Shown here piece after piece: positions 22,603 through 26,226 of a DNA stretch of 43,451 nt. Numbering within the stretch: the first letter of the stretch is position 1; each line of letters starts with the position of its first letter. Below the pieces are notes generated by a model that made no database searches, was not told where the DNA came from, and saw only the letters and a list, made by a program, of their open reading frames with translations. The translations under genes were made by a program, and so were the position numbers. Origin of the DNA: a virus; the IMG/VR virus record IMGVR_UViG_3300042881_002644, positions 1 to 43,451 of that record, one strand, 5' to 3'.

Positions 22603-24315
22603 TTAGATCCTGTAAGTTTTTGGAGCTGTTTGAGAGGCAGATGCTGTTCTTGTTCCCCCCATTGTAGGAGATGTAGAAATTCTATTGCTTGCTTGAGGTA
22701 AGGGGACTGCTGGTGGTGGTTCTATAGCAAGAGATCTTTCTTTTTCTGCTTTACGTCTTGCTTGTTCGGCTTTCCACGCCTCACCAATTCCAGGATATTC
22801 TCCTTTATCGGGTCTAAATCCGGGAGGAAGTTTTTTCCCAGATTGTCTTTGTTCTTCAGTCCATCTACGAATAAAACTCTTTGGAATCGATGCTGTATAA
22901 GGTACACCATCAGTTACTGAACTTGGATCGACAACCCTATCAAAAGATTGATCATATTCAAATTGTGCTTGATCTACACGACGATCTGCTTGACCTTGCA
23001 ATCTAGCAAGTTCTGCATTTTGCCCTCTATACATTCTGTTAAAATCTGTTGCCGTTTGATCATATTCTCTTGCAGTCGGAGAAACACGGAATGCAGAACG
23101 ATTGCTGGCAGCACGAACTAGCATTGCAGAATCTTCTGGACTTCTTGCATCATAATCTCTTCCGTATTGTGCTTTGAATTGTCCATAGGTCATATTTGTA
23201 CCTTGGATTATTTCATCTTGCATTTTTGCATATCGTTCAGCAGCAAGTTGTTTCTCATATGCTTTTTGTTCTGCTGCTTTGGCTTCTGCTTCTGATTTTA
23301 CTTTAGTTTGTGTTTGAGCCACAAGATCAGCCTGAGAACGACCTAAAGTTCTATCTAAAACATCTTGTGCAGATGGAACGCTGGATGCTCTATTTCCACC
23401 ATCTGGCATTGGACCTTGTGCTGCCTGTTGTGCTGCAGAAGAAAAACGATTTAATCTTTCTTTTACTTTTCCTTCAAGACCCGCAGTTGCAACTGAACCT
23501 TGTGTCATTGATTTCAACAAACTTATTTCAGCTGTCTCGGAAGCAGTTAATGAACTTGGATCCTTTCCAGAAAGTTCTTGAAGTCTTGAGGCAACTTTAT
23601 CTGCTTGTTTGTTTTGTCTGAAATCTCTTAATTTTGCTCTATTGGCTGGAGTATCCAAAGGCATGGTTGGATCATTAGGATCCATGTCCAACCCCGGTGC
23701 TTGTTGTGTTGTTACTAGTGGCATAATTCCACCTGGAACAGGAACATTTGCACCTACGGCAACTGTTTGTTTTGGTTGTGCTTCATTATACTCAAAAGCC
23801 TCATCTTCTGCTCTGCGTCTGCGACTTGCTGCCAAATTTTGTGCTCTTTTTGCTTCTAGTTCTTGTTGAGCAGCAACATTTCGTGCATATGCTTCTGGGT
23901 TTCTTTCACGCCATGATCCACCACCACCTCCACCGCCACCACCCATAACACCAGCACCACCGGGACCACCAACAGACCCACCACCACGATTCGATTGACC
24001 AAAAGATGTGGCCTGTTGTTCGGTGATCATTTTTCCAACGCTAAAATCATTTACATTTTTATTCTTTGTGTAGGCTACACAATTTGTGTTGTAGCCTTTT
24101 TGAGCATCTACATTTTGTGCAATAAATTTTGAACCTACATTCACAGCCTCTGAATGTCTATCAAAGGTCTTTTGTACGTAAGAATTATTTTGCTCTAGTA
24201 CGTTTTTTATGCTATCCTTTAGACTTGATGAAGGAGCTGAGGTCTTTGGTTCATGTTTTTTGGTCATGAAATCCTTGACTTCCCAATAAAATTTTCTATC
24301 TTTATTATTATCCAT
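22603..24315 (-). CDS. Probable virion/internal protein with poly-Gly hinge and long helices
   Basis: 570 aa. N-terminal 110 residues are polar and helical. A poly-Gly stretch (GGPGGAGVMGGGGGGGGGSW) forms a hinge, and then Arg/Glu/Ala-rich helices dominate (AAQQELEAKRAQNLAASRRRRAEDEAFEY; KSEAEAKAAEQKAYEKQLAAERYAK). It carries AAQQAAQGPMPDGGNR, a motif repeated in the next gene. It is the first gene of the late minus-strand block, with a CTAAATA core 10 nt before its ATG. No family recognised; an internal or neck/core virion protein is a reasonable guess. Confidence 0.7.
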   Translation of the reverse strand: MDNNKDRKFYWEVKDFMTKKHEPKTSAPSSSLKDSIKNVLEQNNSYVQKTFDRHSEAVNVGSKFIAQNVDAQKGYNTNCVAYTKNKNVNDFSVGKMITEQQATSFGQSNRGGGSVGGPGGAGVMGGGGGGGGGSWRERNPEAYARNVAAQQELEAKRAQNLAASRRRRAEDEAFEYNEAQPKQTVAVGANVPVPGGIMPLVTTQQAPGLDMDPNDPTMPLDTPANRAKLRDFRQNKQADKVASRLQELSGKDPSSLTASETAEISLLKSMTQGSVATAGLEGKVKERLNRFSSAAQQAAQGPMPDGGNRASSVPSAQDVLDRTLGRSQADLVAQTQTKVKSEAEAKAAEQKAYEKQLAAERYAKMQDEIIQGTNMTYGQFKAQYGRDYDARSPEDSAMLVRAASNRSAFRVSPTAREYDQTATDFNRMYRGQNAELARLQGQADRRVDQAQFEYDQSFDRVVDPSSVTDGVPYTASIPKSFIRRWTEEQRQSGKKLPPGFRPDKGEYPGIGEAWKAEQARRKAEKERSLAIEPPPAVPLPQASNRISTSPTMGGTRTASASQTAPKTYRI

Positions 24316-24325
24316 GGCTGTAAAA

Positions 24326-24332
24326 TATTTAG
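24326..24332 (-). promoter_or_regulatory. Late promoter core CTAAATA of the late structural block
   Basis: It lies in the 40-nt divergent gap before ATG 24315; the leader would be about 5 nt. Confidence 0.65.
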
Positions 24333-24337
24333 ATTTT

Positions 24338-24345
24338 CATAAATA
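24338..24345 (+). promoter_or_regulatory. Late promoter core CATAAATA of the HNH gene
   Basis: Followed by AAAAGG and ATG 24356. It is divergent from the minus-strand core at 24326. Confidence 0.55.
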
Positions 24346-24355
24346 CTTAAAAGGT

Positions 24356-24853
24356 ATGACTAAGCAGGTTCTCTTGCTCAATCAAGACAATACACCGCTG
24401 AATATCATTACCGTTGGAAAAGCCTTTAAGTTAATGTCCAAAGACAAGGTTTGGATCGATGAAACTTCTCCTGAATATTATGAAGTGGTATCTGTCAGCA
24501 AAATTGTCAAGATTCCCAAAATTTTGATTCTCAAGTATTATGTGAAATTGCCTTTTAAAAAGGTTGTTGCAAATCGCAAAAACATCTTTAGAAGAGACAG
24601 TTATGTCTGTCAATATTGTGGAATTGATCTATGTGAAAAGACAGCCACGGTTGACCATGTAGTTCCAAGATCAAAGGGCGGTGGATCCACGTGGGTCAAT
24701 ATGGTCACATCATGTAAAGATTGCAATACAACCAAGGGAAACAGAACTCCCAAGGAAGCCAAGATGCAGTTGAAAAACAAGCCAAAGGAACCTTCTTACG
24801 GATTCCTGTTTGACCACATGCTAATTACTTTTAGGAACAAAAACAATGCCTAA
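24356..24853 (+). CDS. HNH endonuclease
   Basis: 165 aa from ATG 24356, chosen for its AAAAGG Shine-Dalgarno. N-terminal part (QVLLLNQDNTPLNIITVGKAF) is the usual lead-in of this HNH family. The catalytic zinc-supported fold spans about 76-135: CQYC (85/88), ATVDHVVPRSKGG (Asp 100, His 101), WVNMVTSC (Asn 115), CKDCN (120/123) and KGNRTP (Asn 129). All key residues are present, so it should be active. It may be a free-standing homing-type nuclease or act in DNA processing. It overlaps the next gene by 8 nt. Confidence 0.9.
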   Translation: MTKQVLLLNQDNTPLNIITVGKAFKLMSKDKVWIDETSPEYYEVVSVSKIVKIPKILILKYYVKLPFKKVVANRKNIFRRDSYVCQYCGIDLCEKTATVDHVVPRSKGGGSTWVNMVTSCKDCNTTKGNRTPKEAKMQLKNKPKEPSYGFLFDHMLITFRNKNNA

Positions 24854-25151
24854 TTATTCATTCGAATGCGGTGCCTGTAAACATGAATTTGAAGTGTTTC
24901 TCAAGATGAGCGAGAACGACCAACCCACAAAGGAAAAATGCCCAAACTGTGGAAAAAAGAAGGTTGCCAAAAATTGGGGTGCCCAAAGAAACTCAATTGC
25001 CTTTGATGCAACTCTGACTCCCACCAAAGTTTGTGGAAGTGCATGGAATGAAGTTATTTCAAGAATCAAGGGTTCTGGCCAAGTTCCCAAGAGATTCCAT
25101 GACCGGCTAGACAATGCTGGCAAAGGATCCGCTGTTCGCTACGTCCGTTAA
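24846..25151 (+). CDS. FmdB-type zinc-ribbon protein
   Basis: 101 aa. MPNYSFECGACKHEFEVFL with CxxC at 8/11 and KCPNCG at 32/35 is the FmdB/CxxC regulatory zinc ribbon, common in phages and bacteria. The C-terminal 60 residues are basic and unrecognised. It is translated with the HNH gene (8-nt overlap) and ends in a 4-nt convergent overlap with the RuvC-like gene. Role unknown; nucleic-acid or protein binding is likely. Confidence 0.8.
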   Translation: MPNYSFECGACKHEFEVFLKMSENDQPTKEKCPNCGKKKVAKNWGAQRNSIAFDATLTPTKVCGSAWNEVISRIKGSGQVPKRFHDRLDNAGKGSAVRYVR

Positions 25152-25687
25152 TTTTTGGTAGCCAGCAAAGATTTTAAAATATAATAACTGTCCACAATAT
25201 CCGTCACAGGATTTGTCAAACTTTTTTGATTAAAAGTAAAGACCAAATCTGTATTTGTTTCTTGGCAGAAGGCTTTATACATTGCCTGTTTATCGGCGTT
25301 ACCTTTCCCTGTGGCGAGTTTCTTTGCCTTGGACGGCTCTATGATGGTCACGGGAACCCCGGCCTTATAGAGCTTATGCTTGAATATTCCCATATTCTCC
25401 GCAAGGTTAAAAACTTTGCCTTTTGAGCCATAAGAATACCCTTCTATGGCAACATCAGAAGCCCCAATACATAAATTTGATGCCCAATCGGATATGCTGT
25501 CAAAACGGTCAACATCTGCCACATATTCCTGAAAACTTTCACCATTGATATTCGGCAAAATTTTATCTGCAAACTTTTTAGTGTTTGTCAGATAATAGAA
25601 AAAGCAGTTTGAAAATTTAAATTCTTTGCGCTCGTCAAATAGACATAAGCACGGGCAAGTTATTGAGTAGTCAACACCTACAAGCAT
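25148..25687 (-). CDS. RuvC-like Holliday junction resolvase/nuclease
   Basis: 179 aa from ATG 25687. The RNase H-fold acidic residues are in order: LVGVDYSIT (Asp 6), VAIEGYSYG (Glu 82), and TDIVDSYYI (Asp 163/166), with a KKLATGKGNADKQAM basic stretch between, as in RuvC-family enzymes of phages. It probably resolves branched DNA before packaging. An in-frame ATG at 25696 lies only 3 nt after the TATAAATA late core, upstream of the expected +1, so the downstream ATG is preferred. Confidence 0.85.
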   Translation of the reverse strand: MLVGVDYSITCPCLCLFDERKEFKFSNCFFYYLTNTKKFADKILPNINGESFQEYVADVDRFDSISDWASNLCIGASDVAIEGYSYGSKGKVFNLAENMGIFKHKLYKAGVPVTIIEPSKAKKLATGKGNADKQAMYKAFCQETNTDLVFTFNQKSLTNPVTDIVDSYYILKSLLATKN

Positions 25688-25699
25688 ATAGAACATAGG

Positions 25700-25707
25700 T
25701 ATTTATA
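25700..25707 (-). promoter_or_regulatory. Late promoter core TATAAATA of the RuvC-like gene
   Basis: Exact consensus. Predicted +1 is about 25694, which excludes the ATG at 25696 and leaves a 7-nt leader to ATG 25687. Confidence 0.7.
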
Positions 25708-25708
25708 C

Positions 25709-25791
25709 CTCGCGCAGGGGAGTGTTTCTTGGTTCTCTGTCAAGCATACTTCGAATACTCAAGAGAAAACGCGAGCCCCAACTCCCCTGGC
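25709..25791 (-). ncRNA. Structured small RNA with H-type pseudoknot, no known family
   Basis: Three pairings are visible. Stem 1 is CAGGGGAGT (25789-25781) with ACTCCCCTG (25723-25715), 9 perfect bp. Stem 2 is CTCGCG (25775-25770) with CGCGAG (25714-25709), 6 perfect bp, crossing stem 1 as a pseudoknot with no bases between the two 3' strands. Nested in the loop is TTCTCT/AGAGAA capped by an imperfect AGTAT/ATGCT hairpin. A CATAAATA late core at 25797-25804 predicts a 5' end at about 25791, two bases before stem 1. It is not a tRNA (no T arm next to the acceptor) and lacks the HDV ribozyme J4/2 segment. Function unknown. Confidence 0.65.
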
Positions 25792-25796
25792 AAAAT

Positions 25797-25804
25797 TATT
25801 TATG
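25797..25804 (-). promoter_or_regulatory. Late promoter core CATAAATA of the pseudoknot RNA
   Basis: CATAAATAATTTT then GCCAGGGG. Same spacing as the promoter in front of the tmRNA (CTAAATAATTTT then ATGCGCGG). Confidence 0.6.
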
Positions 25805-25806
25805 CC

Positions 25807-25845
25807 AATAAAAATCCCGGTTTTTCAGTCGCGGGAAAACCGGGA
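25807..25845 (-). terminator. Rho-independent terminator of the tmRNA
   Basis: TCCCGGTTTT pairs with AAAACCGGGA (10 bp) around an 11-nt loop, followed by TTTTTATT on the minus strand. Confidence 0.75.
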
Positions 25846-26131
25846 AACCCCACTGCTTTAAGCAGCCATCCGCATTGGTGCGGCTTTTATATTTGCAACT
25901 GTTTATTTACGACACTTGTTACCCGTGTCGGGTATCTCCTTCTTCAATACTCTGCACTGATCGATGCCTGTCGGACCCGTGAATGGATCCGGGGAGATTC
26001 GAACTCCCGTGTCATATGCATTTCTATCCGAGATCAACAATACCAAAAGCGCGACGAGGGGCCTGCACCCATGCTCAACCACTGCTTGCAAGTCAATGGT
26101 CCTAGTCAGCATCACACACTGAACCGCGCAT
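25846..26131 (-). ncRNA. ssrA: Circularly permuted (two-piece) tmRNA
   Basis: The 3' (acceptor) half precedes the 5' (coding) half. T arm GGGAG-TTCGAAT-CTCCC, then acceptor CGGATCC (25991-25985) and discriminator A (25984), a 5-nt spacer, then acceptor 5' strand GGGTCCG (25978-25972). The seven pairs include G3-U70 with A73, the alanyl-tRNA synthetase identity. A D-loop-like GCATCGAT follows. Pseudoknot PK1 is TACCC/GGGTA with ACAC/GTGT (25934-25912). Fourteen bases later a tag frame (25896-25858) reads ANIKAAPMRMAA-stop; the stop sits in the loop of a CTGCT/AGCAG hairpin, as usual in tmRNA. Upstream, 26129-26049 is closed by GCGCG/CGCGC. It rescues stalled ribosomes and tags products for proteolysis. 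Exact mature ends are uncertain. Confidence 0.85.
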
Positions 26132-26136
26132 AAAAT

Positions 26137-26143
26137 TATTTAG
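26137..26143 (-). promoter_or_regulatory. Late promoter core CTAAATA of the tmRNA
   Basis: It begins directly after the tRNA-Tyr discriminator base; predicted +1 is about 26131, just before the GCGCG stem. Confidence 0.55.
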
Positions 26144-26226
26144 TGCGAGCTGAAGGATTCGAACCTTCGTAGGCAAATGCCAGCAGATTTACAGTCTGCC
26201 CTCGTTGACCGCTTGAGTAAACTCGC
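26144..26226 (-). tRNA. trnY: tRNA-Tyr (anticodon GUA)
   Basis: 83 nt, class II with a long variable arm. Acceptor GCGAGTT/AGCTCGC (one G-U), anticodon arm GCAGA-CTGTAAA-TCTGC, T arm GAAGG-TTCGAAT-CCTTC, discriminator A. CCA not encoded. Confidence 0.95.

Follow-up and report, generated by a model that had tools for sequence, protein, structure and literature searches.

Locus between the permuted tmRNA and ruvC

The window, meaning the whole stretch of DNA analysed, is the 43,451-nt IMG/VR virus record IMGVR_UViG_3300042881_002644. Its minus strand carries a permuted tmRNA (25858-26144) which was detected both as RF04321 (51.7 bits) and by ARAGORN, with the tag ANIKAAPMRMAA, and which has its own late-type promoter ACTAAATA (26137-26144). 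The tmRNA unit is closed by a terminator-like inverted repeat, CCCGGTTTTC...GAAAAACCGGG with a T-run (25810-25844); the loop of this stem is too long for a simple terminator scan, and the stem was read directly in the sequence. Comparable stems precede the promoter in most of the homologues of groups A and B described below. On the same strand follow the late promoter PL1, a T4-type late box CATAAATA (25797-25804), the element under study (25712-25791; 80 nt, predicted +1 at G25791), a second late promoter, PL2 (TATAAATA, 25700-25707), and a gene for a RuvC-like resolvase (25148-25687; phrog_159, E = 1e-28). The second ATG of ruvC (25685-25687, MLVGVDYS) is its likely start, as the spacing from PL2 favours it over the ATG at 25694-25696. 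The original prediction had placed the element in a gap without genes, with a terminator upstream and the late promoter of ruvC beyond, and all three were seen in the sequence.

The element has a folding energy of -36.7 kcal/mol (z = -4.6), which was matched by 0 of 200 shuffles. Its first helix, P1, joins the 5' arm GCCAGGGGAGU (25781-25791) to the 3' arm ACUCCCCUG(c)GC (25712-25723) through 11 bp with one bulge. The long first stem of 9 bp originally described, CAGGGGAGU/ACUCCCCUG, is contained in it (25781-25789 paired with 25715-25723, read in the minus strand). P3 consists of 7 bp between GUUUUCU (25764-25770) and AGAGAAC (25732-25738), and P4 of 5 bp between UUGAG (25758-25762) and CUUGA (25740-25744), with the apical loop UUCGAAGUA at 25747-25755, all on the minus strand. 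The nested hairpin that had been predicted was evident on reading the window.

Since the element lies directly downstream of the tmRNA and the generous 3' boundary given by ARAGORN reaches into it, we considered whether the permuted tmRNA includes it as a third or accessory piece. This is extremely improbable, because the terminator-like stem and a new promoter lie in between, the Rfam tmRNA match ends at 25858, and no tmRNA was found near most of the hairpin homologues examined. A link between hairpin and tmRNA is not kept in the relatives, and the absence of the tmRNA from most of those examined marks it as accessory at the tRNA-Asn/ruvC locus.

Occurrence and conserved fold of the element

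Relatives of the locus were fetched by means of the RuvC protein, which yielded 80 loci in a sample that is unbiased with respect to the element. Four were left out, three because the locus was too short (L008, L030, and L035) and one because the locus breaks off in the hairpin (L057). The element was present in 76 of the 76 informative ruvC loci. In 56 loci of this fetch it is flanked by two late boxes, with ruvC coming directly after it, and in the remaining ones the hairpin is found ca. 600-700 nt further upstream of ruvC; eight of these were run against the covariance model built from group B and matched at 40-51 bits, and in the others the hairpin was recognised in the sequence of the gene. 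In this uncultured group of T4-like phages, a hairpin under a late promoter therefore appears always to be carried, alone or in a protease gene, as far as the RuvC-based fetch, on which this statement rests, can tell. Pattern scans of IMG/VR enlarged the sample to 46 unique free forms (groups A and B) and 14 unique forms embedded in a gene (group C); sampling by patterns of this kind favours loci that carry the element. Contigs of 117, 136, and 137 kb each gave one strong match to the covariance model.

The hairpin occurs in three settings, namely alone before ruvC, inside a protease gene, and before a three-gene cassette. Genes other than ruvC come after the hairpin in L094, L116, L144, and L185, and the cassette stands between hairpin and ruvC in L094 and L144, whose contigs reach ruvC. 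PL2 is kept before ruvC in the protease phages (AATAAATATCTATG) and before the cassette gene in L094, L116, and L144. These arrangements show, at the level of sequence, that the element is independent of the identity of the downstream gene. A leader specific to ruvC was rejected, as ruvC is displaced in L094, L144, and L185 and group C has the hairpin within a different gene. Apart from this, the interval from tRNA-Asn to ruvC in L094, L116, L144, and L185 was seen to be a hot spot for cassettes, where tmRNA and tRNAs, a 362-aa gene, the three-gene set, and the protease are exchanged and one copy of the hairpin is always kept.

The scan of the window with Rfam 15 gave no match to the element above the gathering threshold, in line with the original statement that it matches no RNA family that could be named, and permissive Rfam scans of the window element and one group-B homologue returned chance sub-threshold hits only. 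No convincing nucleotide match was found in cultured phages, and the covariance model did not match anywhere in the whole genome of phage Mosig. A cellular origin was rejected, since a 19-base pattern matched once among 84,980 species, in a haloarchaeon, which was judged to be chance. No report of this RNA was found in the literature, within a search of incomplete coverage.

Since MAFFT misplaces P3 and P4 when the groups are mixed, all counts were made per group, and alignment A3, which holds reverse-strand matches, was not used for them. The homologues share a single nested hairpin of ca. 85-100 nt with P1 (11-16 bp), a short P2, P3, and P4. In group B, 97% of the cells were paired, 8 pairs (40 cells) were changed on both sides, and the covariation score was 0.290 as compared to 0.022-0.137 with slid partners. 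Compensated variation was seen for P1 in groups A and B and for P3 in group B (GC/UA, AU/UA/GC). By hand segmentation, which was incomplete for L016 and L028, P1, P3, and P4 were fully paired in most members of group A, again with compensation. Group C showed four pairs changed on both sides, including a change from U-A to G-C in 6 of 13 sequences that is carried by two amino-acid replacements. The covariation among homologues that had been proposed as a check was therefore found in all three groups beyond the controls. The apical loop, UC[G/U]AAG[U/C]A, is common to groups A, B, and C (consensus Y-UCGAAG-YA), with a G-to-U change recurring in one member of each group (L016, L066, and L061), and bases of the internal loops are conserved alongside it.

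A hand count from the pair table and alignment A2 gave 32 G.U cells but only 3 A.C cells in the group-B stems, which points to an RNA of the minus strand rather than a DNA cruciform. This count bears on the idea that the element is a DNA-level site, such as a cruciform, a recombination or packaging site, or a resolvase target beside ruvC. Such a site would suit an inverted repeat near a Holliday-junction resolvase gene at a locus that exchanges cassettes. However, the G.U excess has the same orientation as the late promoter, the predicted +1 is the first base of P1, and the element is 0.6-2.5 kb away from ruvC in other phages, so that a DNA site is very unlikely. The substitution patterns show that selection acts on the RNA of the element's strand. 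The free form appears to be non-coding, because single-base indels separate members of group B and no common reading frame exists; a small ORF in the hairpin was rejected, since an ATG is often present in P1 of group A but neither its frame nor the start is kept.

The original prediction had also joined a second stem to the hairpin as an interlocking H-type pseudoknot. The 6 bp of this stem, CUCGCG (25770-25775) with CGCGAG (25709-25714, overlapping the end of P1), are indeed present in the window's minus strand, but the homologues do not support them. A second helix of such length arose in ca. 20% of the shuffles of the window's own joining region. Among 16 group-A homologues, which form the window's own subgroup, 53% of the cells of the second stem were paired with no compensatory changes, and the covariation score was below that of all shuffles. 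The stem was not found in groups B and C, and it is missing from most of the unique A/B cores. A small RNA whose function needs the pseudoknot could draw on a similar stem in the relatives L027-L029 and on a comparable CCUCG/CGAGG in L006 and L016, but given the zero compensation in group A and the absence of the stem from most other homologues, we give this possibility only a slim chance. By the comparative evidence, the element is real as an RNA, and its conserved fold is a nested hairpin and not a pseudoknot.

The leader of gene 32 in phages T2 and T4 is defined by a pseudoknot that is bound by gp32. It resembles the element in being a phage RNA structure upstream of a gene for DNA recombination, and it differs in that the pseudoknot of the element is not conserved. 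A pseudoknot regulator of the gene 32 or preQ1 kind was accordingly rejected, the second stem being neither conserved nor covarying.

Transcript start, transcript end, and neighbouring coding sequences

In 44 of the 46 unique A/B homologues, a TAAATA-type box is found 5 nt upstream of where P1 begins, and the G that opens P1 is the base at the predicted +1 in 44 of the 46 free forms. In two near-complete relatives, an ATG stood exactly 5 nt after 13 of 62 and 16 of 77 late boxes, other distances reaching ca. 1-2, and all 29 of these ATGs open ORFs of at least 60 aa. This pile-up places the +1 at 5 nt after the box, provided that those mRNAs begin at the AUG. In T4, there is no ATG at 5 nt after a late box, and the peak is at 21-28 nt; T4 late promoters have their box roughly one turn of the helix ahead of the start (PMC2988020). 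Judged from the spacing, P1 would start at the predicted +1 of PL1 in groups A and B. Three expectations of the original prediction agree with these data: a promoter with the sequence of PL1 is present upstream of the element, its spacing is the same as that of the tmRNA promoter, and the ATG spacing of the two relatives supports G25791, two bases ahead of the 9-bp stem, as the 5' end.

As minor observations, late genes of the clade look leaderless, with the ATG 5 nt after [TCA][AC]TAAATA (late boxes of the window; L406-L419), and Pelagibacter phage Mosig shows a smaller excess of ATG at 5 nt (6 of 59). Back-to-back late boxes were also noted at 24326-24345, TCTAAATA on the minus strand at 24333 and CATAAATA on the plus strand at 24338, where the genes 22603-24315 and 24314-24853 stand head to head.

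While the element thus has its own promoter with the predicted +1 at the RNA, as would be expected of a small RNA, no intrinsic terminator was found after P1 on its strand, and a discrete small RNA would have to be processed or be ended in some other way. Transcription from PL1 should continue into the next gene, so that the hairpin could serve as a cis-acting 5' leader, capping the PL1 mRNA and protecting it from decay or tuning translation of the next late gene without any separate small RNA. The hairpin starts at the +1 and ends just short of the region of the next gene, groups A and B have an AGG-type Shine-Dalgarno-like tail behind P1, and T4 is known to control late genes by leader hairpins (PMC3014915). 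On the other hand, a PL2 right behind the hairpin usually serves the next gene, many late genes of these phages seem to lack leaders, and the downstream gene varies among ruvC, the cassette, and the protease. Besides, the protease phages hold the hairpin ca. 100 nt inside the coding region, and conserved loop bases would be needless for a simple protective hairpin. A leader role is, on balance, unlikely, though it deserves serious consideration.

In group C, the hairpin occupies codons ca. 34-66 (ca. 100 nt into the coding region) of a 264-268-aa protein that combines a lipoprotein-type signal peptide with a trypsin domain (PF00089, E = 4e-10 and 3e-14), and its fold and loop are the same as those of the free form. 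The late promoter of the protease is the counterpart of PL1, and the protease stop codon usually overlaps the ruvC promoter. Synonymous divergence was 0.130 in the hairpin, 0.143 in the upstream signal-peptide part, and 0.369 downstream, where the lowest other window reached 0.226. When mapped on the ruvC tree, the gene-embedded label requires 12 changes, of which supported branches force at least five, so that closely related phages carry different forms. Class labels on this tree were assigned partly by regular expression, and a few of them (L391, L006, L222, L251, and L014) are wrong, which does not affect the contrast between A/B and C.

These data also bear on whether the hairpins of groups A and B are functionless remnants of the protease coding region in the course of decay. 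The A/B and C hairpins are homologous and have the promoter PL1 in common, and group A retains short protein-like stretches (SSKY) around the loop. Decay is nevertheless highly unlikely, as the stems of groups A and B stay paired through many double changes, no informative relative is without the hairpin, and synonymous sites are constrained at the RNA level even where the protein is made.

Regarding the protease gene itself, a trypsin-like lipoprotein under a late promoter was noted at L033:2973-3770 and in relatives, and no homologue of it was found in cultured phages. The first ca. 100 nt of the protease mRNA (e.g., L033:2973-3075) show low synonymous divergence though the protein varies, and contain two small predicted hairpins, one of them with a paired change (CAAGCACTGCTTG / CATGCAGTGCATG).

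Proposed function and comparison with known phage RNAs

We lean towards the reading that the element is a late phage RNA that acts as RNA, is probably released as a small RNA, and is recognised through its loops. This reading is favoured because the hairpin goes with its promoter whichever gene comes next, starts at the predicted +1, and keeps its loop bases. The RNA would be made late in infection from PL1, starting at P1, and the 5' part of the transcript might be released as a stable small RNA, for instance by cleavage in the A/U-rich stretch after P1. The small RNA would then act in trans, its apical loop and conserved internal-loop bases being recognised by a protein or by a partner RNA, and the mRNA of the protease phages would work both as a coding and as an RNA molecule. 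Against the small-RNA reading, a ribosome translating the protease would have to melt the hairpin in the gene-embedded form. Antisense pairing to a phage mRNA through the full loop was rejected, as the exact complement TACTTCGA occurs only at the element itself in a near-complete 136-kb relative.

A more specific proposal, to which we assign somewhat less than an even chance, is that one RNA occurs either as a free, non-coding late RNA or as a domain within the protease frame, the two being interchangeable, and would act in trans in both forms, with exactly one copy obligatory per phage of the clade. If so, the protease gene would be a dual coding and regulatory RNA. Strong comparative evidence backs the element as an additional family of phage RNAs, for which no relative is known. 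The evidence is unusually clean in that free and gene-embedded versions swap repeatedly at one locus while the RNA is never lost, which separates its function from the neighbouring genes and makes the long-standing question of the role of stable late phage RNAs directly testable.

Among known systems, the stable RNAs C and D of T4, from its tRNA region, are likewise small phage RNAs of unknown function; compared by description only, neither a late promoter with its +1 at the RNA nor a gene-embedded form is described for them in the part of the source consulted (PMC3014915). The marine T4-like phages Melnitz and Mosig, which are related, carry a glnA glutamine riboswitch beside a two-piece tmRNA (PMC9004378). 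It is, like the element, a structured RNA adjoining a permuted tmRNA, whereas the element matched no Rfam riboswitch family. The mRNA hairpins of T4 e, soc, 49, and I-TevI embed a late promoter, and gene 49 encodes the T4 resolvase (PMC3014915). They share with the element the combination of RNA structure and late promoter before a resolvase or late gene. However, the T4 hairpins hide the start region of the gene, whereas the present hairpin ends before the ruvC start, leaves PL2 outside, and also occurs without an adjacent ruvC. Occlusion of the start site of the T4 e/soc/49 type was rejected, since the GAGG/AAGG tail and the ruvC ATGs lie beyond the end of P1.

Separately from the element, a short AGGUA/UACCU helix is possible at PL2 in the window and impossible in many homologues. 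The stretch around the late box of ruvC (25695-25708, AGGUAUAAAUACCU), which is poorly conserved, could form a small hairpin in longer transcripts and recalls the control of T4 gene 49.
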